Source: Chromera velia | Taxonomy: Eukaryota > Sar > Chromeraceae | DNA length: 33,503 nt | Assembly: GCA_018398765.1 (NCBI GenBank) | Contig: JAHBMJ010001242.1 | Location: forward strand, 1-33,503 | Direction of reading: 5' to 3' | In this document: in pieces, positions 1 to 26,938 of the stretch | Layout: every line of letters starts with the position of its first letter | How positions within the stretch are numbered: the first letter of the stretch is position 1 | Notes under the pieces: model-generated | Told to the model about the DNA's origin: nothing | The model's input: the letters and a program-made list of their open reading frames with translations, nothing else | Databases searched by the model: none | Translations under genes and position numbers: made by a program

Positions 1-229
1 CGGGGTCAGTTGGCACGGGGGGGGTGGTCCCCCCCCCATTTTTTAGGGTGACGCCCGGGGTGATGCGCGCTGCATTCATGTTCGGCCCAATTAAGTTGCA
101 TGCATGCCTGCATGGTGGCCGGGCCATGGCCGGGCCCGGCCCACCCGCGATGAGCCGCGTTACGCGCGGATCCGGGAGAGCGTTTTGGGGTGCGTTTCGC
201 GTGTATCTCACAATTGCGCGCGGTACCTC

Positions 230-590
230 ACTATATGGCGAAGCGCACCCGCGCGAATCGTAAGAGCCACCTGCAGGTGGCGCTTATACAACTGCGGTCA
301 CAGTTTTTTTTGCGCAGAGTGTGAGCGCATTCCATAACAGCCACCTCACTTTTTCTAAGAGCCACCTCTCATCACAGTTTTCCCACTGACTGCCTCATGG
401 TCACAGTTTTGCATCCGTCATGCATTGCCGCTCACCCGTCGCGCAGACTCATGCATTCAGTGCGCGTCGGTTTCTGATAAACTTGTCTTGCTTCAACTTA
501 GGAAGATGGAGTCTCATTGCCTGGGCTTTTCTTCGGACTGCATTAATATGTACTTCGAAGTATTCTGCATGCGCACAGTTTTCGGATGTG
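230..590. promoter_or_regulatory. Cluster of GCCACCT and TCACAGTTTT elements
   Basis: Two short motifs alternate here. GCCACCT occurs near 267, 340 and 362. TCACAGTTTT or CACAGTTTT occurs near 298, 372, 401 and 576. The first GCCACCT is part of a 26-base near-perfect palindrome. The same GCCACCT core, with TAAG beside it and the flanking string GGCGAAGCGCACCC, returns at about 8.0-8.1 kb upstream of the JmjC gene. The arrangement looks like a cis-regulatory module or a dispersed repeat. The role is inferred; only the repetition is seen. Confidence 0.4.
261..286. repeat. 26-base near-perfect palindrome centred on CTGCAG
   Basis: The two arms are TAAGAGCCACCTG and CAGGTGGCGCTTA. Only one base pair departs from perfect symmetry. 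The centre contains overlapping E-box-like CACCTG/CAGGTG sites. It could bind a dimeric factor or form a cruciform, but no function can be read from the sequence alone. Confidence 0.7.
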
Positions 591-698
591 TAGACGGAGC
601 GACAGCTGAAGCATTCGGGAGGCGCTTACAAGCTTTCCGGGTGTTCAAGGATTGGGAGGGAGAACAGGCACAGCAACAGAGGCAAACAAGACGGCAAA

Positions 699-836
699 AT
701 GGAACTCGACTCGGCAAACAGCATGCATCCCCTCATAGACGGCGAGGGAGAACCTGCCGATGAGGAAGAGGAAGTCGATCCCATTGAGGATGGAACTAAG
801 GTGCAAGGGATGGCTGCCAGTCAGGCGGAGCAGTGA
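699..836 (+). CDS. Small acidic ORF, or first exon of an unidentified gene
   Basis: An ATG at 699 opens a 45-codon frame ending in TGA. It encodes an acidic peptide with a run DEEEEVDPIEDG around residues 21-32, a composition typical of protein N-termini rather than chance DNA. It may be the first exon of a gene that continues to 1837, because AAG|GTGCAAG inside it (about 794) could act as a donor. I do not recognise the product and could not build a phase-consistent splice model. Chance remains possible. Confidence 0.3.
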   Translation: MELDSANSMHPLIDGEGEPADEEEEVDPIEDGTKVQGMAASQAEQ

Positions 837-851
837 GGGGTTCTGCAAGCT

Positions 852-1228
852 GTGGGCGGTCGGCTTCGCTTCGCGGGCATTGGTGCGGCAAAGATCGCAA
901 GGGGTCTTGAGCCGGCAGGCGAGAAGAAGAAGCATGGTGAGGCATGGACCAAAGGGATGTACACACGCGCGCTTGCCAAATTCGCGAGGAAAATTCCAGC
1001 CGAGAGGGCCTTCAAGAGAGAGGGGGCAAGACAGCACGCCTCGCCAAAAACGGGTAGTGAGCAATGGAATGCTTGGCAGTCGATTCAACGGTGCCCCAGA
1101 TACAAAGCAGTCGGCAGAATCAAAGACAGCACTCCCTGTCATTGCGAGCCTCAGCAGTACTGCCTCCTTATACCGTGCGATGGACCCGTCTCGAAAGAGA
1201 AGTGCAAAGTAAAATGCCAGAAGATTGA
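852..1228 (+). CDS. Possible internal exon of an unidentified gene
   Basis: This frame is open for about 126 codons. It encodes a basic, Lys/Arg/Ala-rich stretch ending in a Cys-containing segment. It ends at a good donor match, GA|GTGAGT at 1228/1229, and is followed by a pyrimidine-rich tract (1243-1334) that finishes in CCCCAG, as an intron would. However, joining it to the next open frame gives an early stop, so either the acceptor or the frame is wrong. No family is recognised. Confidence 0.2.
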
Positions 1229-1342
1229 GTGAGTTTGGAACCTCTAGCTCTCCTGTTTCCCCCCCTTTCCTTCAGCTCCTTCCTTTTTGTTTTCCCTGGC
1301 TTTCCCTAGTCGTTTCCTAGTACCCCTTCCCCAGAAGGACGA

Positions 1343-1837
1343 GTGTTTCAGCCTGAGGGTGCGAGGACAGAAGTGAGCGCTAGTAGCGGGGGAGATTGGG
1401 TTGCCAGAATCCAAGCTCTCCCTCTTCGTTCATCAGACCCCCTTGATGCTCCAGGCAGAAGACGTCAAAGTTCCCACCCATGGCGTGGGCCGATTTCTTC
1501 TCCGGCTGCCCCTTCTGCAACCCCACAGCCCGAGTGCAGAGTACTTTTTGACGGTACAGGAGTTGGGCATTCGATCGCCATTGAAGAAACGAGAAGAAAA
1601 TGGGAAGAGGCACCGATTGTGCAAAGGGGGCAATGTAGATGCCAGTGGTGTGGGAAAAGGAAATCACATGCAACGCACCCAAAGCTACCACCTCACAATG
1701 TGCAGTGGTGTGCCAAATATGATCTTGATGTGTTCATGAACAGCACTATATACAAGGATGCAGTTGCAAAAAAACTTCATCGGGCGTCACTTGGCAAACC
1801 AGCAGCACAGCCTCAGCTGGATGTCAAGAATGAATGA
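1343..1837 (+). CDS. Terminal exon encoding a Cys/His cluster, unidentified
   Basis: The frame runs to TGA at 1835-1837 and is followed within five bases by AATAAA. A pyrimidine-rich tract ending CCCCAG at 1334, and TTTCAG at 1353, offer acceptors, so this is probably a last exon rather than a free ORF (its first codon is GTG). The C-terminal third holds CRCQWC, then HATH, then HNVQWC, which could bind zinc. The spacing faintly recalls the cysteine-rich tail of piggyBac-type transposases, but no DDE core is visible and I would not assign it. The rest is Pro/Ser-rich and low in information. Confidence 0.35.
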   Translation: MFQPEGARTEVSASSGGDWVARIQALPLRSSDPLDAPGRRRQSSHPWRGPISSPAAPSATPQPECRVLFDGTGVGHSIAIEETRRKWEEAPIVQRGQCRCQWCGKRKSHATHPKLPPHNVQWCAKYDLDVFMNSTIYKDAVAKKLHRASLGKPAAQPQLDVKNE

Positions 1838-1841
1838 CTGA

Positions 1842-1847
1842 AATAAA
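1842..1847 (+). terminator. Candidate polyadenylation signal
   Basis: AATAAA lies five bases after the TGA at 1837, and the base composition changes sharply to AT-rich right after it. This supports a transcript ending here. Confidence 0.45.
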
Positions 1848-2354
1848 ATTTAAAGTGTTTTTGTTGGTTTTCACTTATTTTATATAAGCTAATATACATT
1901 CTTATTGTATACAGATCTTAAAATAATTTTAAGATTTATTTACTTATCTTGATTTATCTAGTAAGATTGTACGTGCATTTTAAACTTTTGGTTTAATTAA
2001 GTTATGTATGTACTTATAGTAAATAGAATGTGTATAATAATTTACATTTAAAATTCAATTGTACTAGTTATTATACATTAAATACTACATTCGTTTAAAA
2101 TTATGTAAATTCACTGCTTAAATTAACATATTATTTATGTAAATTAACTTAGATTAATCCATAAATTCACCTAGTATTGCAGGGAAATTATTAATTTATT
2201 TGTACGTTATTAAAATGAAATGTACGTACATAATTAAATAACGCAATTATCTAATATAAAATTAGTAAAAAAAATAGGATCATAAGATAACTTCAAATAA
2301 TAGATTTACATTTACAATAGCTGCCGCTGTATAGATAACGCAGAAGCTGTAATT
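1848..2354. other. AT-rich intergenic spacer
   Basis: About 500 bases of AT-rich sequence lie between two convergent genes, the plus-strand candidate ending at 1837 and the minus-strand RecQ gene ending at 2355. It has repeated TTTAAA/TAAATT strings. No ORF or structured RNA was recognised. Confidence 0.6.
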
Positions 2355-2660
2355 TCAAAACTCTACCTCGTCTTCGTACTCATTTTCATCATTTTCAATG
2401 ACAAAATCCAAATCCTCATACTCATTTTCATCTTTAGAGATGACATTTTCCTCTTTGGACTCAGGGTCTATCTTCTATCGCTTTGGGGGAGAAGACGCTC
2501 CTGGGGGAGAAGGCGGCACTACCGGGCCGCTGTCTCTGCTTGTTTCCTGACCCCCCCGCGGAGACGGCGGCACGGCCGAGGGCACGGCACGTTCTTCGGG
2601 GGGGGGGACGGGGACCTCAAGGCCCAGTGCAGTCCAGCCTTTCTCGGTCAACGAACTGTA

Positions 2661-2682
2661 CATATATACATACATACATACA

Positions 2683-2723
<41 letters not shown>

Positions 2724-2748
2724 ATACACACAGTGATACATATACAAA

Positions 2749-2780
<32 letters not shown>
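2661..2780. repeat. (CA)n microsatellite inside RecQ intron 7
   Basis: This is nearly uninterrupted CA/CATA repeat. On the coding (minus) strand it is (TG)n and fills most of the intron at 2656-2871, between donor GA|GTGAGT and acceptor TACAG|TTCG. Confidence 0.85.
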
Positions 2781-2783
<3 letters not shown>

Positions 2784-3917
2784 GGGGGAGGGGGAGAGAG
2801 AGGGAGAGAAGAGAAGTAAAGGGCAGAAAAAAACACAGAAACAGAGACCTTTTATTCTTTCATCCACTCACTCAAGGATAGGATAGCGGTTGCCGCGACC
2901 AGTATCTGCCCCCCTCTCCGCAAAATACCCGTCCTCGACCATTGCGTCCATCAGTCTTTTGAGCGACTGCACACCATGCTTCCTGTTCTGCCTCCAACAA
3001 CGTCCTAGCACCCCATTGCTCGGAATGTTGGCTTCCTCAAGCAGCCTGCATGAACGAATTTTGTATGAATTCACGAAGCAAACCAACATAGTTAGCACCG
3101 AAAAGATCTTTAAAGATCTACGAAAAGACGAATGTGCAATCAGAAAAAGGTAATCTATTCAACAATCTGGACAACAATAAAAAAAGTTTAACAATGTTTA
3201 ACAGAGACTCGCTTGACACACTAACTAATAATTAAGAACATATTCAAATGTATAAAAACAGACAAACAAACGACGGACTCTTTTCTTTTTGAAGAAAGGG
3301 CCTTGCAGCAGCCTCCGATGCCCAATGCAAGGTACGCAACCATGTCTGTCGTCAAATCTCCTCGCACCTTGTAGACAAGGGAAAGATTGTCGGCGTCTTC
3401 CCCGCTCTGTTTCAAAAGATGCTTTTGATACTCGAAAAGGAGACGGCAGAGGGCTTTCACCTTCTCCATTTCTTCTTCAATGCGCAGAGAAGGGGGAAAT
3501 AGGGAGTACGAGGGATGTGCACACATGTCGCACGCAAAGCGGCAGACAAGAGGGGGAATCGGCGTCTCGCCTTCAAAGTGAGCTCGAATAAGCCCCCACT
3601 GACAAGACTTTTCGTTATTCAAACAAAACCGATCCACTTCTCTCATCGCCTTCTGCTGTTCCCCCACATCTATACTCTTTCTTGCCTGCCGCCCCCCCCC
3701 TCTTATCTTCTTTGGGCCACAGGTAAGCTTCTTCGCCCTAAGCACATCATTCCCGGAATACCACAAAAGAGCACGAGATGGTTAACCTCTCCGGCCATAA
3801 TGTCCAACCTCTTGGTACAGTCTGGCAAAGGCATACGCATAGACAAAACCGTGGACACAGAGAGATACATACGTACATACACATACACATACATATACAC
3901 ACACATGCACGCACACA

Positions 3918-3984
3918 CAGAGAAAGAAAGAAAGAAAGAGAGCGAGCGAGAGCGAGGCTAGAGAGCGAGAAGACAAAGAGAGAC

Positions 3985-4033
<49 letters not shown>

Positions 4034-4152
4034 GAGACAGAGACAGAGACAGAGACAGAGAGAGGAAAGAGAAGGGACTAGAGAGGGGAAAGAGAGAGAG
4101 ACAGACAGAGACAGAGACAGAGGAAAGAGAGAGCCTAAGAAAGAGCAAAGAG

Positions 4153-4197
<45 letters not shown>

Positions 4198-4222
4198 AAG
4201 AAAGAGGAAGAGGAGAGAGATG
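3918..4222. repeat. Purine microsatellite (GA/GACA/GAAA)n inside RecQ intron 5
   Basis: About 300 bases of GA-rich repeat. On the coding strand it is an extremely long pyrimidine tract within the intron at 3822-4271. The long ORFs it creates in all frames (Ser/Leu-rich or Arg/Glu-rich) are artefacts. Confidence 0.85.
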
Positions 4223-5976
4223 CACACATACAGTAACGAGAGTCACCAATGAAAACAGAGAACTGACTTACCGGTCCAGAGTGGAGGGTAAGGCGTAGTG
4301 GAAGACAAATGAACATGCAGGGTTGTCGATGCCCAAACCGAAAGCCACTGTGGCAACTACTACCCGAATAGCGCCCGACAGCCACTCCTCCTGAACTTGC
4401 ACAACAGAAAAGGCCCGAATAAGTCGTAATTTTTGAGCTGCATAACCGCCATCTATGCGAGGAATTCTAGAAAAAAAAATTAATTTCAATTTTAAATTAG
4501 AAGGACTTAAGCAGCATTGGCACAGACGTCTGAGCCGGGAAACAGAAAAAAAAAGACTTATGGCGGTCAAGATCATGCAGAGAACTTAGCTTTTCAGATT
4601 TGGATTTATAGAAAAACGAGAAAAAACGTGTGTCGTCGACCGACGATATTGACTGACCCTCTGACGATCTACTTTTTTCATATCCCCATGATAAAATATG
4701 GCTTTAACCCCCCGGCTGTTCATTTCCTTCGCGACTTCCTCACACTCCTTCCTTGTAAGACAATAGACAATGCCTAGCTTGGACTCAAGAGTCCGACCGT
4801 TCATCAATCCTACCATCTCTTCTGCAAGCCGGGCTCTCTGCCCAGCGCCAGAGGGCTAAGCCTTCTGTCTCACTTCCAGGAAGATGTTGGGGCGAAAAGT
4901 TCCCATAGAGAAGTGGACAGGCTGATCCAGACAAAGGGTTTCAAGGATTTCTTTCTTGATCTGCAGATTGCAGGAGAGATCGCCAGAGCAACTTTTCGAC
5001 AGGCACCTATAAAAAAAAGGACTCTCACGGTAGATGGAAAGGAAACAAAAGAAAAAAGAGCTCAGGGAAGAAAGACATGCAAAAACGGCTGCTTATCAGG
5101 GCACCGATGTAGTACCAGACTTCTAAAAGCAGAGGTGATACAAAGTGGAACAGAGGATATGAAACCAAAAAACAACATGAGTGAAGAGTTGGCGAAAAAT
5201 ATGAAGGGATTCGAGAAAGAAAGGGCTTGGGGTCCCCGGATCTGATGCCAAGCAAACACCCATCAAACCCACTCAACCTCCACCCCTAGCTCCCTCCCCC
5301 AAATTTACGCAAGACACAGTGAGTGATGAGAAGGCGTCTCCCAGGAAGCGAGAAAGTTTAAAGTAGGAGAAAGACAAATTCAAATAAAAGAAAAGTCTCA
5401 CCTCAGGTGTTGCGGACGCTGTCACAGCAGCTATAGGCACCCCTGGGTACCATTCCCTCAGCATTTTCAGCTCTGCAAAGCAGAATGAAGTTGCTTTGAC
5501 ACAGAAAGCAGCGAAAAGATGAACAGAGGAGAAACAGCATACAAGACAGGCATATATACACCGACACCCAGACCGATACCCCCCCCCCACACATACATAT
5601 ACACACACATACACACACAGAGAGAGAGAGAGAGAGAAAGAGGGAGAGCAGAGAAAAGCAAAGAAAACTTAGTAGAAACGTACATTACTAAACAGACCTT
5701 TGTAGTCTGGCCGGAAATCGTTCTCCCAAATGGGAATCAAATATGCTTTATCGAGCCCAATAACGACCAACTTGGATCGGTGGAGGAGACTCTGCAATAC
5801 TGTCGTGATGTAGAGAATCTGAGTAGCTGGAGAATCCAGCTTCAAGTCGTCCAAGAGCCTCTTCACCTACATGCATTGGAAAGGCATCACATGCATATTG
5901 CAGAGGGGTAATTTCCCGGGTAAAGAAAGTATAGGGGTGCAAGAAAGATGAATTTGTGAATGATTGTGAATGGATG

Positions 5977-6280
5977 AAGGAAGGAAGGAAGGAAGGAAAG
6001 AAGGAAGGAAGGAAGGAAGGAAGGTAGGAAGGAAGGAAGGAAGGAAGGGAGGGAGGAAGGAAAGAAGGAAGGAAGGAAGAAAGGAAGGAAGGAAGCAATG
6101 AATGAATGAATGAATGAATGAAGGAAGGAAGGAAGGAATGGATGCATGACTGACTGACTGACTGACTGGCTGGCTAGCTGGCTGGCTGGCTGAGTGAGTG
6201 ACTGGCTGGCTGGCTGGCTGGCTGACTGACTAACTGACTTGACTGACTTGACTGACAGATAGACAGACAGACTGACTGCT
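5977..6280. repeat. (GGAA)n and (GACT/GGCT)n tetranucleotide tracts in RecQ intron 1
   Basis: Read in the gene's direction, intron 1 (6291-5867) begins at the donor GAG|GTCAGT and runs into GTCA/GTCT/GCCA tetranucleotide repeats. It then passes into (TTCC)n pyrimidine repeat before the acceptor GCATGTAG. Almost the whole intron is simple repeat. Confidence 0.85.
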
Positions 6281-6779
6281 GGAAAACTGACCTCTTCTTC
6301 ACGTATGCTTCCCTCAAGAGTTACAGCTAGAATTCCTTTTGCAAGCAGTGTACGTTTCTGATCCTTCATGAGAGAGACAAGAGGAGAGATCACAAGAGCG
6401 ACGCCTTTTCTAAACACTACAGGAAATTAGAAAATTAAAGACTTGCCGCCCCCTGTCGAAAAATTGGCGATCACATCTTTTCCAGATAACAAGGCATTGA
6501 TGGGGCCCAGCTGGAGCCCTTTGAAGGAATGGAAGCCAAAGCGCCCCTTCAGCATCTCCTGAAGCTGTGGGCTCCAGGGGAAATCGCCAAACCACGGTCT
6601 CCCTTCTTCACCAAGATGAAAGGATGTCTGGTCCGGATACGTCCCCGTCTTCAACTTGTTTGTTAGCAGGTGAAAAGACTCTTCCATCGGGTCCGCTTCC
6701 GTCCGACCCGTGGAAGGGAAAGCGCCGCTTGAGCTTGATGCAAACTCCTCCATCTGATTGCCTTAGAAGGGTTAGGGTA

Positions 6780-7760
6780 TAACAGTAAAAAATTAAAAAA
6801 ATAAAAATTAATTATAACCTCCCCTTCCTAGGGTTTTAAACAAAAACCTACACTCTAAAAGTACGTTTTTTGTGGTTCTGAGCCAAAAAGAACCACATTG
6901 CAACATAAATAAAGTCACTAGCTTGTAAATCTTTTCAGTTCTGGCAAGAAAACTGCTAGGTGCCAGGTAAAGTTCCAAAATATCTAGAAGGGTGGTTCAG
7001 GAACTCAAAACAGAACTCATCTGAACTGGCTGGAACTGACAAGAACCAACTTTCTATGCACTTTCTATGTATTTAGCTGTCGTCAGACTGTTTTTCTAAC
7101 TCTTGAAAGGCTGTCTCAAGACGTGCAAGCTCTTCAATCTCAACTCTCAGACCATCTTCAACCACAACGGTCTCATGAACCCAAAAAAAAATGCCACTGA
7201 TCGGAATGTTGTCTAATTAAGGCATACATAAACGGCACATTGTTAAAGGAGAAAAAATAACAGCATTGGAATTTTTACTTGCTGAAACGGCAGTCGATTC
7301 ATATGAAATTGATTTATTCTGCTTTATTTAACCATCTGAGACTGACTGAGATCATTTATGTCATTTGTCTGGTTATGCATGACTCTGATTGACCGTTATA
7401 CATGAGTCTGATCGATCATGGAGAGCTAAATCATCAGTTGAGAGCTTGGTTTGGATGGTTCAAGCCCGGTTCTCACGGTTTTGATTGGGTTCCTTCTGGT
7501 TCAGAAAAGTTCCAATAGTTCTTGTCTCTGTTCATTCGGTTCATGAACCAATGACCAGAACCGGAAGTGACACCGACTTCAGAACTAACTATAATCACTT
7601 AGAACTTACTTGAACTTTAGACCTATACTCTAATTAGTGGTTTTTTAGGGTTCTTTTGTTTTTTAAAGTTTGTAAATTGGGTTAAAGTTTTATTTTTTCA
7701 TCAAAAAAGTTGTAGGAACCACACATGTAGTTAGGGATCGTCCATAGAGTGTCATACCCT
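6780..7760. other. Non-coding stretch rich in GGTTC/GAACC and GAACT
   Basis: Nothing in this kilobase looks coding. The pentamers GGTTC, GAACC, GTTCC and GAACT recur many times in both orientations, densest at 6870-7060 and 7450-7620. Similar strings (ACCTACACTCTAA and ACCTATACTCTAA) lie near the two ends, at about 6848 and 7620. It resembles a degenerate non-autonomous element with subterminal repeats or a decayed satellite. This is tentative. Confidence 0.35.
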
Positions 7761-7992
7761 AGTGGAAGGGTGACGACAGAAAATCGAGATCAAGCAACGG
7801 TTTGAAGAAAAAGAGATGCCAACTGATTGTACTCGATGCACGCTAAAAAAAAAAAGAGTCACTTCAATTAGACGGCCGTCGGTTTCGCCATACAAGGGTA
7901 TACTAGAGTGGAGCGCTCTGTGCCGATCTGGTACGATTTATTTGTCTTTTATGCAGTGTGCTGCCAGAGGTGTGTTCGAGCGTACTACTCAG

Positions 7993-8110
7993 CGTAGACG
8001 GTGCACGGATGCATCTGGGTGGCGCTTAAGAGCCACCTCCCGTAGACGGTGCACGGATGCATCTGGGTGGCGCTTAAGAGCCACCTCCCTAAGAGCCACC
8101 TGGCGAAGCG
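7993..8110. promoter_or_regulatory. 48-bp direct repeats carrying the GCCACCT palindrome
   Basis: Two copies of a 48-bp unit start at 7993 and 8041 (CGTAGACGGTGCACGGATGC...). A third partial TAAGAGCCACCT follows at about 8090. Each full unit contains GGTGGCGCTTAAGAGCCACC (8018-8037 and 8066-8085), a near-perfect palindrome related to the one at 261-286. The cluster lies about 500-600 bp upstream of the JmjC start codon, so it may be its upstream regulatory region. That role is inferred. Confidence 0.45.
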
Positions 8111-8410
8111 CACCCCTATTTTTGTGTATCCAGGTGGCCCTTACACGTTATCTCTCATAGCACAATTTACGGGTCAAAACTGTAGTAGCCCGTGCATTGT
8201 CAGAAAGCGCGGCGTCCCGTCATCGTCCCGTCAGTACAGACGCAGTTGACAGTTCCGCAGTTTGGACAGAAAGGGATCGAAATGGGATCGAATGACAGTC
8301 GTGTTTGTCTATGTTTGACACTGCATGCTGTGTGTGCTGAGCGTCCTACAAGTAAGGAGCACAATATCGAACCTGCATGGACCATACTGCAGCCCCCTCC
8401 GATTTGAAGG

Positions 8411-14790: not shown

Positions 14791-15138
14791 GCTCGGCACG
14801 TAGGGGCGCTACTCCCTTTCGCAGTCTGAAGACTGCGGCCTTAACAAAAATGCAAAGACCTACCTCTGGAAGAGTTGAGGAAGGACTAGGACATAAAACA
14901 AGCATCTCTTGGAGGAGACCCGCGACCTGCAAAGAGCAGAGGAGGGGGGCAGGGGTGAATAACACACGCAGAGACGGCAGTTTTGTGCCTTGCCGAGGGC
15001 AGACCAGTCAGTCATTCAGAAACCACAATGGCCAGGTTGCAGCCATACAAGAACACTCACAGACATCGTACAAAGCCTTCTGCATACACCAAGAAGGCTT
15101 ATCTCTGCAAATAAGATTTTTTCAATTCCCTCATTGGG

Positions 15139-15771
15139 AGGGGGGGGTGGACCCTCTCGCAGGGGTACGAAGCTGGCCAATTTGGTACCCCTGGTGGAGG
15201 GAGGGGGTCCGACCTGCTCTGCAGGTTTGCGTCCAAAATGTGTTTAGGAAACATACGAAGCTGGCCAATTTGGTACCCCTGGTGGAGGGAGGGGGTCCGA
15301 CCTGCTCTGCAGGTTTGCGTCCAAAATGTGTTTAGGAAACATACGAAGCTGGCCAATTTGGTACCCCTGGTGGAGGGAGGGGGTCCGACCTGCTCTGCAG
15401 GTTTGCGTCCAAAATGTGTTTAGGAAACATACGAAGCTGGCCAATTTGGTACCCCTGGTGGAGGGAGGGGGTCCGACCTGCTCTGCAGGTTTGCGTCCAA
15501 AATGTGTTTAGGAAACATACGAAGCTGGCCAATTTGGTACCCCTGGTGGANAAATTGGCCAGCTTCGTATGTTTCCTAAACACATTTTGGACGCAAACCT
15601 GCAGAGCAGGTCGGACCCCCTCCCTCCACCAGGGGTACCAAATTGGCCAGCTTCGTATGTTTCCTAAACACATTTTGGACGCAAACCTGCAGAGCAGGTC
15701 GGACCCCCTCCCTCCACCAGGGGTACCAAATTGGCCAGCTTCGTACCCCTGCGAGAGGGTCCACCCCCCCC
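15139..15771. repeat. Inverted (head-to-head) array of 88-bp tandem repeats around a single N
   Basis: On the left, units starting ACGAAGCTGGCC lie at 15167, 15255, 15343, 15431 and 15519, exactly 88 bp apart. The fifth is cut at the N at 15551. After the N the same sequence runs in reverse complement for two more units. About 28 bp of unique flank (GGTGGACCCTCTCGCAGGGG on the left) is mirrored on the right up to 15771. The copies are almost identical. The N marks an assembly join, so copy number and even the inversion need confirming. Protein frames here are shadows of the repeat. Confidence 0.85.
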
Positions 15772-15839
15772 TGTTACTGGTGGAACGACATAAAACGAAC
15801 TGACCTGATTGAGCGATCCAAACCAGTCCGCCAACCCTT

Positions 15840-19541: not shown

Positions 19542-20705
19542 ATGGACCTTTTGTGGGGTGTTCAGGGGTCTGCGGGTGAGGGTTCTGGGCAGACAGTTGC
19601 GTCCGGACAGGACGCGGACTCCGTGCAGCACCCTGCGGTGTGGAGTCCCTCCGACGATCTGGATCTGCCTGAGCCTCCGAGGAGCGTCATCCTTCCCGGA
19701 GGGGTGCCTAAGGGGAGTGTGTCGGGGAGGGGGGACGAAGCTCTGTCGGCTGGGAGGGGGAGCAGGCGGGACGCTTTTGCTTCTGAATTCGTTAGTGGAT
19801 GCGGTCGGGGTGTAGCGTCGGGGTCGCGGGAGAATGTGGCCGCTGGATCTGTTGGGGGAGAGGGGGCATCAGGAGGTAGGCAGAGCGTGAAGAGGCATAG
19901 GGAGGTGAAAGGATCTCCTTTGGGAGAGTATAGAGAAAGCCAAGACTTTCCTGTAGGGCTGTCGGGGCGGGTAGGGGCAGGGGTTGATGGTTTGGTGTGT
20001 CGCTCGGAACGGGTGAAGCGGTTCCGGGGGGTGGGGTTGGAGCTGCCGTCTCCTTCACTCTCTCAGGGGGAGTTGAGGGGGGGCAGGGAGGTGTTGCGGA
20101 AGAGTCACTGCTCTCATGGAAGGCTGCAGGCGAATTGTAAGGATTGTGGGGGGAAGAATATTTGCGTGCACGGGCGCCTGAAGTACCAGTGCAAGCCGTG
20201 CGGGGGGAAGAACATTTGTCCCCACAACAGGCAGAAGAGCCAATGCAAGGATTGTGGGGGAAAGAGTATTTGTGAGCACAAGCGGCAGCGAGCTAACTGC
20301 AAAGAGTGCGGGGGGAAGAACATTTGCGAGCACTCACGCCAGCGCAGTCATTGCAAGGAGTGTGGTGGCAAGAGCATTTGTCAGCACAATCGTCAGCGTG
20401 CCAACTGCAAGGATTGTCGAGGAAAGAATATCTGTGAGCACTCCCGCCAGCGTAGTCAGTGCAGGGATTGCAGGGGAGGGAGCATGTGCAGCCATGACCG
20501 TCAGCGCTTCCACTGCAAAGACTGCAAGAGATCCTCCTCATCTGCGCATGAGCGCCCGCCCAGCCAGAGCAATGAGGGTCCCGCCAACGCAACCGAAGCA
20601 GAGGACGAAGAAGAAGAAGAAGAAGAGATCATATTTGAGGGAGACGAGGAGGAGGAGATCGCCTTTGAAGGAGATGAAGAGGAAGAGATCGTGTTTCAAG
20701 GTTGA
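19542..20705 (+). CDS. CHCC zinc-repeat protein with acidic tail, 387 aa
   Basis: Residues 1-185 are Gly/Ser/Arg-rich and disordered, with KRHR and VKRFR basic patches. Residues 190-335 are eight tandem 18-residue units of the form CxHxRxxxxxCKxCGGKxI. In each, Cys-x-His-x6-Cys-x2-Cys supplies four zinc ligands. At DNA level this is a 54-bp repeat from about 20108 to 20540. The last two units drift (RGGSM, KRSSSS). Residues 358-387 are three copies of an EGDEEEEI(A/V)F-like acidic unit. Repeats of the ICEHxRxRxxCKxCGG type are common in algae and some large viruses but have no agreed function; nucleic-acid or protein binding is a guess. I chose ATG 19542 because the upstream in-frame codon at 19524 is GTG. 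It ends in TGA. It is a single exon with no interruption. Confidence 0.8.
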   Translation: MDLLWGVQGSAGEGSGQTVASGQDADSVQHPAVWSPSDDLDLPEPPRSVILPGGVPKGSVSGRGDEALSAGRGSRRDAFASEFVSGCGRGVASGSRENVAAGSVGGEGASGGRQSVKRHREVKGSPLGEYRESQDFPVGLSGRVGAGVDGLVCRSERVKRFRGVGLELPSPSLSQGELRGGREVLRKSHCSHGRLQANCKDCGGKNICVHGRLKYQCKPCGGKNICPHNRQKSQCKDCGGKSICEHKRQRANCKECGGKNICEHSRQRSHCKECGGKSICQHNRQRANCKDCRGKNICEHSRQRSQCRDCRGGSMCSHDRQRFHCKDCKRSSSSAHERPPSQSNEGPANATEAEDEEEEEEEIIFEGDEEEEIAFEGDEEEEIVFQG

Positions 20706-22530
20706 AGGAGACTAGGAGGAATTAAAAAGAGGAAACAACGAGATGCAAACACCTATACAATTATGTGAATTAAGCCCTAGATTAAACCAAACGTTGTAAT
20801 TAAACAATTTAAAATATAAGGCCTAGAATAAAGCTTTGATAATTTAAGACTCGATTAAGAGGCTAATAATAGTAAGAGCAGATAGAAAAGACTCCACCTG
20901 GCCCCCTGGGGCCCCCTCTCCTCATGCAGATTTGAATATCGGAATCATTCGAAGTATATAACATAGCATTGCATTGATATTCCGGGTTTTACTAGGGTTT
21001 TGTCATAGAAATAAAAAAACTGTGATTTACTGTAAATCTGGTATTAAAGCATTACATCCTAGATTGCATCTGGGTAGAATGTGACCGAATCTGAACTTGG
21101 CTGTAAGTCACCCATCTATGGGCAGCAAGTACTACCATATGTATCAGAGGCATGCACGCAAAGCCAATCCGGCCTAGCCGCCTAGGGGGAAAGATAGGAA
21201 GAATTCAGCAGTGCACTCATCCTTATTGATGACTGAACTAAAAAAGATTAATCAAATTAAATCCTAGGCTCCGCACTGTAGTAAAAAGACATTTAAGAAA
21301 ATATCGGACTCAGTTTTTTTTAATAGATTTTTTTTTATAGATCCTAACAAACAACTGTTGTTCAAGTGTTATCAAAGTGTTGCAAAGGTGTTGTTAAGGT
21401 GTTGCAAAGAGTATTAAGGAGTGTTAAATAAAGAATAATACTTATTCAGGTATTGCTAAGGTGTTATTCAGATGTTGCAAAGAGTGTTGCACAGTGTTGC
21501 TTGAAAAACAGCAGTTGTTGTGTCGATATATAAAAAAATAAAAAAAATATCAGCACCTTTTTTTTTTTTTTTTTTAAGAGTGCAGAGCCTAGGTTAAATC
21601 AAGTAGAACCTATATAATCCCAAGATCGTAAGTATTACAATGTAGCCAGGTCTCTAGTGTAATCTCAAGTAGGCTAAGTATCGATCGTTATACAAAGTTA
21701 CAAACAAAATAAATTTCACATTCATCATATCTATCCATAATTAATTTTAAAAACCAAATTAAAGCAGATCTTGGCTGTGCACTGGCATATATTTTTATTT
21801 TAGATCAGTGCTTAAATTTTGTATGCAATTATATATAGGATGCAATCATGTGGTCATATTCCCTTCAGTCAATAGATAAAGATTCTGTGATTGATGAATC
21901 GGCCATATGATTAAAGATCGACTACTTGATTTTAATCATTTTATGCTCACTCTGTGCATGCCAATCCACAGGCCCACACCTAGGCCCACACCCACCCTCC
22001 AGCCCCTGCACCCCTCCATCTCCTGCCACCCCATGTAGTCTTCCAAAGACACCGCCACAAATGCCAGCACCGCACGGCAACTCACACTCGCCCTGCTGCG
22101 GCAGCTCTACGTACATGTGACTCTGCACAACAAGCCTGCACACACTCAAAAAACGGTGGACAGACAATTAAAAGCTTGAATACAGCAAGTAAGTGTGTCA
22201 TCAAAAAATAAAACATCGAACCTCGGAGAATTTACTTCAACTCTCGATTTTTTTTACGGAAAATTGATTAACAAGCAAGCTTATATGACAGCTGCATGTC
22301 TGCAGATTGGTGCACTGAAAGAAGGAGAGGATACACTAGCTTGGGCCTCCCTTCCATAGACACTGCATGGTCACGCATAATATGCAGATCGTCATGTAAG
22401 CATGCAGTTAATGTGCAAATGATCGAGAGCCAGAATGCAACCTCCATTGTATGACAAACAGACTTTCTTATGCTTTCTTGAAACGTCTGCTTCTATGAAA
22501 CACGTCCTGACGCGTCCTGACTACCCCACT
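20706..22530. other. AT-rich intergenic region with simple repeats
   Basis: No gene was recognised. At 21355-21505 a degenerate repeat of GTGTTGCAAAG/GTGTTGTTAAG recurs about ten times. A T18 run lies at 21558-21575. A C-rich patch at 21960-22090 opens a short frame without protein-like features. Confidence 0.5.
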
Positions 22531-24440
22531 AGACCCCACACATACAGACAACACTCCCTCTGATCTGACCTCTCTATCTTCCAGTGTAATTCCCATACAT
22601 TTCCCGCACATACAGACAACGCTCCTTCTGATCTGACCTCTCTATCTCTCTCTGCACATCCCGCATATATAGACAACGCTCCCTCTGATCTGACCTCTCT
22701 ATCTCCTCATGCAATCCCCGTGCACCTCCTGCACATGCAAACAATGCTCTCTCTGATCTGCATAACCTCTCTATCTCCCTCTGGACCTCTCGCATATGCA
22801 GACAACGTTCTCTCTGATCTGACCTCTCTATCTCCCTGTGCAATCCCCATGCACCTCCTGCAGATACAGACAACGCTCTCTCTGATTTGCATGACCTCTC
22901 TACCTCCCTCTGAACCTCCCGCACATACAGACAACGCTCTCTCTGATCTGACCTCTCTATCTCCCAGTGCAATCCCCGTGCATCTCCCGCACATGCAGAC
23001 AACGCTCTCTCTGATCTGACCTCTCTATCTCCCCGTGCAATCCCCGTGCACCTCCTGCATATGCAAACAATATCAGACAATGCTCTCTCTGATCTGCATG
23101 ACCTCTCTACCTCCCTCTGGACCTCCCGCACATACAGACAACGCTCTCTCTGATCTGACCTCTCTATCTCCCCGTGCAATCCCCGTGTACCTCCCGCACA
23201 TGTAGACAATGCTCTTTCTGATCTGTCCTCTCTATCTTCCTTTGTAACTCCCGCACATGCAGACAACGTTCTCTCTGATCTGACCTCTCTATCTCCTCGT
23301 GCAATCCCCGGGCATCTCCCGTATATGCAGACAACGCTCCCTCTGATCTGACCTCTCTATCTCCTCGTGCAATCCCCGTGCATCTCCCGTATATGCAGAC
23401 AACGCTCCCTATGATCTGACCTCTCTATCTCCCCGTACAATCCCCATGCACCTCCTGCATATGCAGACAACGCTCCTTCTGATCTGTCCTCTCTATCTTC
23501 CTCTCTAACTCCCGCACATGCAGACAACGCTCCCTCTGATCTGTCCTTTCTATGCCCCTCTGCACCTCTTGCAGTTGAAGACAACGCTCCTTAGTTGTAA
23601 TTCTTATCTGACCTCTCTGTCTTCCTCTACACCTCCCGCATATACAGACAACGCTCCTTCTGATCTGTCCTCTCTATCTTCTTCTGTAACTTCCGCACAT
23701 GCAGACAACGCTCCTTCTAATCTGTCCTCTCTATACCCTCCTGCACCTCCTGCAGTTGAAGACAATGCTTCTTAGTTGTAATTCTTATCTGACCTCTCTG
23801 TCTTCTTGTTTTCCTCTGTAACTCCCGCACATACAGACAACGCTCCCTCTAATCTGACCTGTCTATCTCCCCGTGCAATCCCCGTACACCTTCTGCACAT
23901 GCAGACAATGCTCTCTCTCATCTATATAACCTCTCTATCTCCCTCTGGACCTCTCGTACATACAGACAACGCTCCCTCTGATCTGACCTCTCTATCTCCC
24001 CATGCAATCTCCGTACACCTCCTGCAGATGCAGACAACGCTCTCTCTAATCTGCATGACCTCTCTATCTCCCTCTGGACCTCCCACACATACAGACAACG
24101 CTCTCTCTGATCTGACCTCTCTATCTCCCAGCGTAATCCCCGTGCATCTCCTGCATATACAGACAATGCTCTCTCTGATCTGACCAGGTCCTCTCTATCT
24201 CTCTCTGCACATCCCGTACATGTAGACAATGCTCCCTCTGATCTGACCTCTCTATCTTCCCTTGTAGCTCCCACATATGCAGACAAGTTGACAACGCTCC
24301 TTCTGATCTGACCTCTCTATCTTCCCCTGTAGCTCCCGCACATACAGACAACGCTCCCACTTATCTAAGCTCTCTATCCCCCCCTGCACCTCCTGCACAT
24401 GCAGACAACGCTCCCTCTGATCTGGCCTCTCTACGACCGC
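22530..24440. repeat. 1.9-kb minisatellite with 56-, 62- and 68-bp units
   Basis: About thirty units share CAGACAACGCTCYCTCTGAT followed by CTGACCTCTCTATCTCC and a variable part (GTGCAATCCCCGTGCACCTC or shorter). The common spacings are 56, 62 and 68 bp, which differ by six. All leave remainder 2 on division by 3, so reading frame rotates each unit. The long minus-strand frames (for example 22574-23266) therefore reflect repeat composition, not a gene. Two units near 23570 and 23750 carry a divergent TTGCAGTTGAAGACAAYGCT segment, suggesting higher-order duplication. Confidence 0.85.
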
Positions 24441-26938
24441 TTTGTCTACGACACGCTTTCTTCTCTTTGAGACTCTTGGCATGTGTGAGACATTCTTGAT
24501 CACTGGTAGATACTGGCAGAAGCTCGCAGATGAATAGGCATATGGAATGGAAGATAATGGAAGAGGATCCAGTCAGTGAATGGCAAGTTTGCGGAGTCTT
24601 GCAGAGCACTTGAAAACAAAATGGGGGAGAGCATGCACATGTTACAGACACTTGAGACAGACGAATGAACATATACGATTGCAGAGGCCTGATTCAGCTA
24701 TGATAGCATGAGATGCTTGCAATTGAGGTCATCGAATATATCGAAAAAGCAAAGACCAGATAGAAAGCAATCGACACTTGCCAATGATACATGTGATTCC
24801 ATGATATTTCTTATCCATAACGTTGTTAATGACGGCCAGCCGCATGAGATGGTTTCATATGGTATGCTCAAACTAGCACTGCATCGGATTCCGAAGTCTC
24901 TGCGACAATCTAAGCACGTCCGACAAGAAACAGTTCCATGCATGCAGTGCAAACCTGTTCTGTGGGGAGTTCTATAAATCGGCAATAGCTTTAGTTAATA
25001 TAAAGGACAGACCTGCACACAGCCAAAGTATACCCCAGAGCACGCTGCTTTTCAGTTTTTGTTAGAGGTTTGCTGCACCCATACAGACAGAGTCAGGTAA
25101 ACATGCAGGCAGATATGATAGGGAGCTAGACAGATGAAAGATGTCGGGATGGCCCGACAGGCAGTCTAACGGGCAATTTGACTGGATAGTCAGATTAAAC
25201 AGATAGGTAGACCAAACCGAATAACAGACAGGATCGACAAAGACAGTCATAGAGAGAGTAAGGGGGGGGAAGGCTGCATAGGGAGAGATGTAAGCAGAGA
25301 CAAATCGCATGCATGCACAATAGCATGCACGTATTTATTCTATCTTTTCTAATGACTCTGCTTTCACACAAAGAGCCTTAAGGGTCACGTGCATACACAT
25401 GGCTCATAGTTGATTGATACATACAGAGAAAGCTAGCCGTAGAAACGAAGTCTTCTCAGACTGCCTATGATCAGACCAACTCTTCACGCAAGACATACAA
25501 GAGAGCTAAATCAAACACGACATGCACGCCTACACATGCATGCACAATCAACTTGAAGGGCACGGTGACTGACTCTTTCTTTCCTGCTCCTGGAACGAAA
25601 GAGATTACCGTATCTGATATGGGATGGGTCTCTGGGGAGGGCTTTGGTCAGAGGATTGCCCTTGGACTGCCATTGGAGGACATGATAATTGTGTTTTTCA
25701 GCTTTATCCTACAACTTGAATCAAACAGTCCAGAAAGGCAAAGAAAATGTAAAAGATGCAAAGTTTAGGTAGATATATGTATATAGTGATAGACATAAGT
25801 TCAGATGCACATTGCACTCATAGTATAGCTACAGTCATGCAGTATGTCTGTCTCATGGCCTGGCTTGCAGCAAATCAAAAGAATCTGTAACAAATTTTCC
25901 TTGAGCTTTCTTTCTACTAACCATTCGTTTTTTATCTGAATGTAGATCAGCTCCCAGAGCTTTTCAATTGAGAGTGAAAGCTCGTTGTCAGCCATGCCCA
26001 TGAGACGGATGCCTACCAGAGACGTAAACAGGAATGTAGCCCATCTTGGCCGCCCTCTGGCAGCAGACAAATGTAAGGAGCTTGTCTGTTTTGTGATTTC
26101 TTAAGGTAGCTTCAAGTTTCTTCTTGAATTCTTGGTATTGCATGCGTCATTGAAAGCAGAGCATCCGCCTCCCCTTGTGCTTATGTGAGTGCTATGGGGG
26201 ACCTGTACAAGAGAACAGACAAATCCATTTGGCTTGAAAGCAATATTGAGAAATAAGGAAGCCCTTAGACTGTTGGACACATGCTAGACGCTTACCCATT
26301 CGCTTCTTTCTAGTTAAATAGAGTCAAGTGTTGCACGACCATGGGTGTTGCAGCAGTCATGTGTTGCTTTAAGACACATCCTGGCCTTTGGCCCAGATCC
26401 TTTAATCATGGGCGCTATACCAGTGCGCGGGCGCCCACGCTGATCGATACGCGAGATTCCGTGACTTTTCCGTCTCGAGATATGTTCCTAGCACGTCTGC
26501 CTTACTTTTGTCTTCCCATTCCTCTATGCAACACTGCAACACATCTGGCTACATAATAGCCTATATTGCAATATTCTAGGTTCTATACTTGATCAGTCTT
26601 TTGCGGTTCAGTCATAGCGGGAAGGCCCTAGGGCAGAACATATCAATCAATCAATCAATCAATCAATCAGTCGTCCATAAAGTTTACATAAAATGAAATG
26701 CATGTTTACCAAAATGGTTTAATAATATATAAGTTTAACAATAAAACGTCGCTCACACGCGTTGAAAGTAGCGTTTCAAACATATTCAAACAATTACTCT
26801 TTTGGGTTAATTAAAAAAACCATACTTCCAAATTTTAATATTTTTTCTTTAAATATAAACTTGATGTGTGTAGTATGGCTTTATCCTAAGGATAACCTTA
26901 CATGCGGTTTGATCACGCCTAGGCTTTGATCTTTTCAT
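24441..26938. other. Intergenic region without convincing gene
   Basis: TGCATGCA occurs at 24939, 25310 and 25537. A plus-strand frame at 25553-25768 contains a protein-like stretch (TDSFFPAPGTKEITVSDMGW) that might be an isolated exon, but no splice partner was found. The minus-strand frame at 25801-26070 is equally inconclusive. The last 300 bases are AT-rich. Confidence 0.4.
26641..26669. repeat. (ATCA)n microsatellite
   Basis: Seven tandem ATCA units in otherwise AT-rich spacer. Confidence 0.9.

Follow-up and report, generated by a model that had tools for sequence, protein, structure and literature searches.

A RecQ helicase gene interrupted by four UAA/UAG codons in Chromera velia is very probably a decayed duplicate

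Does a RecQ helicase gene that is broken by UAA and UAG codons, and by no UGA, point to an exception to the genetic code or to the death of a gene copy? This question is raised by a minus-strand gene in a contig of Chromera velia (GenBank JAHBMJ010001242.1, assembly GCA_018398765.1), the whole of which, bases 1-33503, we refer to as the window (contig C1240 in our numbering). A first-pass annotation had set recent decay against the reading of UAR (UAA or UAG) as glutamine. We searched the 177.8-Mb genome, comprising 4040 contigs (C numbers) from which loci (L numbers) were cut. Comparison with the related copies found there indicates that the gene very probably arose as an intron-bearing duplicate of a gene for a RECQ1/RECQ5-like helicase and is now an unprocessed pseudogene in neutral decay, with a C>T bias that copies of a hAT-like element show as well.

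Both the RecQ gene and its four in-frame stops are confirmed. Eight exons within positions 6753-2355 join at seven GT..AG junctions, in phase, into 714 codons (695 in the first count), the last of which is TGA. Before this final codon, the frame is interrupted by TAA at codon 109, TAG at codon 269, TAA at codon 388, and TAG at codon 674 (stops 1 to 4), so that the exons, together with PDB and Pfam matches, reproduce the eight-exon frame with two UAA, two UAG, and no UGA that had been described. The best PDB match of the product is 7a8r_A, named just "ATP-dependent DNA helicase" (E = 1.9e-66), followed by RECQ1 (9i22_A, E = 7.6e-64) and then RECQ5 and BLM, and Pfam recognizes DEAD and Helicase_C domains. 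The likeness to RECQ1/RECQ5/BLM-type helicases covers residues 56-477 in the alignment to 7a8r_A and 56-408 in that to 9i22_A; the window copy differs from them in its four stops, in having DKAY for DEAH, an altered motif VI, and a deleted TPE segment, and in lacking any match to RQC or HRDC in the Pfam search of its product. The exons are given here with their lesions; L082 and L080 are the paralogues on contigs C3741 and C2618, recovered by searching the genome for RecQ-family members and, at the DNA level, for matches to the window gene (figures from the DNA search are among the matches listed) and both aligned to the window gene.

6292..6753, minus strand: RecQ exon 1; ATG at 6753; Walker A GGGKS at 6453-6439; stop 1, TAA at 6429-6427 (CAA in L082 and L080)
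5698..5866, minus strand: RecQ exon 2; DEAH box changed to L-DKAY (5755-5741); TPE segment lost through a 33-nt in-frame deletion that follows YIT near 5804
5402..5472, minus strand: RecQ exon 3, from the gene model and paralogue alignment
4658..4960, minus strand: RecQ exon 4; stop 2, TAG at 4858-4856, within a 6-nt insertion missing from both paralogues
4272..4390, minus strand: RecQ exon 5 in the model; both paralogues have an upstream acceptor AG that is altered in the window near 4397
3279..3821, minus strand: RecQ exon 6; motif VI reads GHYGRRG at 3805-3785; stop 3, TAA at 3784-3782
2872..3045, minus strand: RecQ exon 7, from the gene model and paralogue alignment
2355..2655, minus strand: RecQ exon 8; stop 4, TAG at 2477-2475 (TGG in the C292 copy); final TGA at 2357-2355

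The C3741 paralogue spans exons 1-7 at 92% DNA identity to the window gene, with exon 8 falling inside a run of N, and the C2618 paralogue spans exons 1-6 at 89% identity, its contig ending within exon 6. Over the exons available, their frames stay open for 622 and 519 codons, respectively, and both retain Gln at stops 1 and 3 as well as DEAH, TPE, and GGQPS. Like unprocessed duplicate pseudogenes, the window copy keeps its introns, shares them with genomic paralogues whose frames are open (across exons 1-7 in one and 1-6 in the other), and carries stops, indels, lost active-site residues, and a neutral ratio of nonsynonymous to synonymous changes. Contig C292 holds the 3' part of a RecQ gene, 88-92% identical to the window in DNA (404 bp of C292 compared), C1712 matches at 94% over the 5' flank and the initial 139 bp of the query gene, and elsewhere an open frame of 1384 amino acids on C3685 gives a RecQ match (382 bits). 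A more distant copy of exon 1 (78%) at C1548:84794-85353 has one TAG and two TAA in its family match, and a second, divergent RecQ copy at C2618 9001-16822 (L081), lies ~12 kb from L080; its exon 6-like match is interrupted by a stop in frame, and a TAA occurs in another of its family matches.

The first-pass annotation had proposed that all four stops could derive from CAA or CAG. By paralogue comparison this is true of stops 1 and 3 only, where both paralogues have CAA. The codon of stop 2 lies inside the 6-base in-frame insertion, which is private to the window, and stop 4 stands opposite TGG in C292, the sole paralogue sequence that reaches that site. Trp is the simplest ancestral state for stop 4 but is not certain, because C292 is a single copy at this site and is itself rich in C>T differences (18 sites are A/T in C292 where the window has G/C, and 5 run in the reverse direction). 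In the PDB alignments shown (three in one search and five in another), stop 1 alone is opposite Gln, which agrees with its earlier placement in a Gln column. Against 7a8r, stop 2 aligns with a gap; against RECQ5, it aligns with Leu. Stop 3, previously assigned to an often-Gln position, is Gln in the paralogues, but the residue aligned to it is Met for 7a8r and Lys for RECQ5. That no in-frame UGA occurs holds as an observation but is unremarkable: of 40 sites in majority-state codons at which C>T or G>A makes a stop, 12 give TGA, and the probability of no TGA in three such events is 0.34. On paralogue comparison, then, the apparent pattern of stops at Gln codons disappears.

Lesions other than stops are also evident. 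Relative to L082 and L080, the window copy carries the 33-nt in-frame deletion that eliminates the TPE motif and the 6-nt in-frame insertion, contrary to the earlier description of a frame with no indel. In the place of DEAH and the GRCGRGG of motif VI, by which an active RecQ helicase would be recognized, the window has LDKAY and GHYGRRG. At intron 4, both paralogues have an acceptor AG (CAG, then GCTCAG) that reads CAAG in the window, where the modelled in-phase junction lies 6 bases further on; for this reason the junction as modelled may not be the original one. The phase does close at all seven GT..AG junctions, as had been claimed, but through an acceptor that has changed relative to the paralogues. 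Because its motifs are lost or altered, the product would probably still differ from a normal RecQ ATPase if all its UAR codons were read as Gln.

That last point bears on the possibility that UAR is read as Gln in some transcripts, through a suppressor tRNA or an altered eRF1, and that the protein is made. CAA in both paralogues at stops 1 and 3 and the lack of in-frame UGA would fit such a reading, but stop 2 in an insertion, stop 4 opposite TGG, the altered DEAH box and motif VI, the deleted TPE segment, and a neutral substitution ratio would not. At the level of the genome, stops occur in 3 of 37 DEAD-family matches (UAR in 2) and in 8 of 48 RecQ-family matches (UAR in 6, two of which are the window gene itself), any of which may span introns or decayed copies. 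Eight conserved DEAD-box segments cut from the 37 DEAD matches, 1426 codons in all, contain 83 CAR (CAA or CAG) codons against 0 UAR and 0 UGA. Three window open reading frames (ORFs), two of them DEAD-box/Helicase_C, have 75 CAR, although as stop-to-stop frames they exclude UAR by construction. The best eRF1 match retains NIKS and YVCNSAF; we take NIKS and the Y-C-F residues to be the recognition motifs of eRF1. Neither the eight conserved segments nor the best eRF1 match shows the changes that the first-pass annotation had suggested looking for. A UUA or CUA anticodon is absent from the 30 tRNA loci typed among 52 matches, an incomplete sample in that 63 of 4117 candidates were scored. Reading UAR as Gln is contradicted by the paralogue codons, the code test, and eRF1, and we give it next to no chance of being correct.

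Other observations concern tRNAs and UGA in this genome. One tRNA, on contig C213 (L041), has a UCA anticodon, which would read UGA. A DNA search of the genome with a Gln tRNA revealed, besides the intact tRNA-Gln(UUG) gene itself, seven truncated tRNA-Gln-like copies arrayed near it on the same contig (C323:39428-40560, L043-L049), none of the seven being called by ARAGORN. Contig C4040 (L013, L023) looks plastid-derived, with 5 in-frame TGA codons in one frame, presumably rps2-like, and 1 in another, presumably cytochrome c-like. In the Chromera plastid, UGA is used for Trp, according to an excerpt of a review (PMC6722601).

To describe how the copies diverged, private changes were counted in a three-way set of the window, C3741, and C2618 comprising 1454 exon and 745 intron columns, with low-complexity and gapped columns dropped; because C2618 ends within exon 6, the set includes neither the last part of that exon nor exons 7-8. 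The window has 49 private exon changes (3.4%), C3741 has 23, and C2618 has 7; in introns, the respective numbers are 29 (3.9%), 5, and 11. C>T or G>A accounts for 46 of the 49 window exon changes (17 C>T and 29 G>A) and 19 of the 29 in introns, for 21 of 23 exon changes in C3741, for 4 of 7 exon and 4 of 11 intron changes in C2618, and for 66 of 81 changes in three copies of the hAT-like element described below. Across window exons and introns, CpA is hit more often than CpT and CpC together (30/296 versus 23/615, p = 2e-4) but not significantly more often than CpG (12/179, p = 0.24). CpG leads in C3741 (14/224, above CpA at 8/317) and in the hAT copies (11/33), which show no CpA preference (25/136 versus 30/203 for CpT and CpC, p = 0.45).

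The bias resembles fungal repeat-induced point mutation (RIP) in that C>T and G>A fall on both strands of duplicated DNA and CpA exceeds CpT and CpC in the window copy, and four C5-DNA-methylase matches, on three contigs, would also fit a repeat-directed, RIP-like process acting on the window duplicate. The window composition, however, is not RIP-like: over 17 bins of 2 kb, scored with two RIP indices against the thresholds for RIP, no bin passes both, and bin 2001-4000 passes one (0.91). Context preference differs between copies and is not shared by other repeats, C2618 shows little of the bias, the same counts are accounted for by ordinary deamination, and the host is probably not a fungus. 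With the RIP indices failing jointly and CpG leading in the hAT copies and C3741, deamination of possibly methylated cytosine in repeats appears a sufficient account, and we consider a RIP-like cause unlikely. Of the earlier proposal of recent decay with a CpA-to-TpA bias, the C>T excess and the preference of CpA over CpT and CpC are borne out; an excess over CpG and a RIP-like cause are not. The accessible text of one article on RIP (PMC9998398) contains no mention of Chromera.

Immediately upstream of the gene, the window copy has gained an insertion. In the paralogues, the ATG directly adjoins a flank of ~420 bp that they share with the window, where an inserted stretch shifts it by ~1 kb. 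The insertion and the flank beyond it comprise the following features.

6764..6771, no strand assigned: target-site duplication, proximal copy CCCTTCTA, with one mismatch to the distal copy
6772..7762, minus strand: non-autonomous hAT-like element, 991 bp, with ends CTAGGGTATGACACT / ACTGTTATACCCTAA, the second an imperfect inverse of the first; 18 bp upstream of the ATG
7763..7770, no strand assigned: target-site duplication, distal copy CCCTTCCA
7771..8191, minus strand: original 5' flank of the gene, common to C3741 (96%), C1712 (94%), and C2618 (86%), with matches ending at the same base, 8191, in all three

The element is repetitive, giving 56 matches spread over 31 contigs (that of the window among them), and two further copies have perfect 8-bp target duplications. 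Many copies, short matching terminal inverted repeats, and an 8-bp target duplication (with one mismatch in the window) are features of hAT non-autonomous elements, to which we assign it on its ends and duplication length, by criteria that we take to define the superfamily. Its private divergence, 28 of 953 columns or 2.9%, is near that of the gene, which suggests that insertion and decay are of similar age. Assembly or sequencing error is a very improbable source of the stops. The assembly is a draft, with an N run and a contig end in the paralogues themselves, but the changes are many, directional, and also present in introns and flank, and both the indels and the insertion flanked by its target duplication are clean.

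Changes in the window copy are distributed as expected for a gene free of selection. Counted without the complexity mask, its private C>T/G>A changes comprise 32 nonsynonymous, 14 synonymous, and 2 stop changes, against 29.2, 16.8, and 2.0 expected from random C>T/G>A hits on majority codons. This neutral ratio is as found in duplicate pseudogenes and gives no sign of constraint on the copy, which argues against editing or alternative splicing of the transcript to remove the stops and restore a working helicase; the altered catalytic residues and the 33-nt deletion would need compensation too, and we regard this as a scarcely credible alternative. At 32 window-private residue differences (2 of them stops), divergent genomic RecQ copies back the paralogues in 15 cases, the window in 4, and neither in 13.

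Several points weigh against a simple history of neutral decay in the window copy. The same divergent copies that side with the window at 4 of the 32 sites are the sole means of separating a window-private change from one on the stem of the two paralogues. None of the close paralogues is covered in full, given the contig end in C2618, the N run over exon 8 in C3741, and the 404 bp of C292 that were compared. Neutrality is not special to the window copy, as the C>T/G>A changes of C3741 are also neutral-like (15 nonsynonymous and 7 synonymous). Private changes outside the C>T/G>A class occur at 3 of 1454 exon columns but at 10 of 745 intron columns, a lower rate in exons (p = 0.002), and for this reason part of the copy's history may have been under constraint, or the intron alignments may be noisier. 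Finally, below position 3416, only 6 of 311 exon columns differ between the window and C3741, compared with 72 of 1454 before that, possibly through gene conversion.

The RecQ copies differ from unprocessed duplicate pseudogenes in having sharp common ends, like a discrete repeated unit that moved. At the 5' side, position 8191 is the boundary base in C3741, C2618, and C1712, and a short C1439 match ends within one base of it; at the 3' side, matches end at 151 (C3741) and 153 (C292), delimiting one further feature.

152..2354, minus strand: 3' portion of the repeated unit, matched in pieces by C292 and C3741

Ends common to several copies suggest that the RecQ gene lies in a discrete repeated unit of ~8 kb in the window (about 152-8191), or ~7 kb once the hAT element is subtracted. 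A search for terminal inverted repeats of this unit was negative: the motif at its 5' end is present a single time in the window and at five genomic sites, each on a different contig. Inspection of the window flanks by eye revealed no target duplication. With neither an inverted partner of the 5' end nor a target duplication, mobility of the unit is only a suggestion. Fungal telomere-linked RecQ helicase families likewise consist of multi-copy RecQ genes. That a RecQ gene travels in a low-copy, transposon-like protist unit of ~8 kb with defined ends and is also subject to a repeat-directed C>T process outside fungi seems improbable. Among the papers available for searching, none contained both Chromera and RecQ.

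Elsewhere in the window, Pfam searches of 10 ORFs gave matches (E up to 0.01) only for a cupin/JmjC ORF and the two DEAD-box/Helicase_C ORFs, and among five ORFs close to the start of the window there was a single weak match (E = 0.04), which did not reach its cut-off. An Rfam scan of the window yielded 0 matches and a tRNA scan found none; a plasmid tblastn search gave 325 records, all below 60% identity, that were not used. Direct repeats of 88 bp lie at 15126-15785, as does an inverted repeat of 234 nt that is 97% complementary and has arms 192 nt apart. A long minisatellite of mixed ~57/61/68-bp spacing occupies 22521-24453, and 54-nt tandem repeats at 20136-20513 encode CKDCGGKNIC-type cysteine repeats in one open frame. 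At 1-68, the first ~64 bases of the contig partly recur on seven other contigs at 93-100% identity.

For the RecQ gene, we propose that it was duplicated to several sites in the genome along with its 3' region and ~420 bp of the 5' flank, and that the non-autonomous hAT-like element would then have inserted directly ahead of the start codon of the window copy. This insertion may have silenced the gene and started its decay, after which changes would have gathered without coding constraint, mainly as C>T and G>A, a bias that deamination of possibly methylated cytosine could explain. Two Gln codons and probably one Trp codon would have become stops, a small insertion would have brought another, and the ATPase motifs would have been lost. 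A possible exception to the genetic code is thereby resolved as ordinary gene death, and the case illustrates that a strong C>T bias can mimic a pattern of stops only at Gln when no paralogue is at hand. What remains of interest in Chromera velia is a helicase-bearing repeated unit with common ends and a strong C>T bias in the repeats of its genome.

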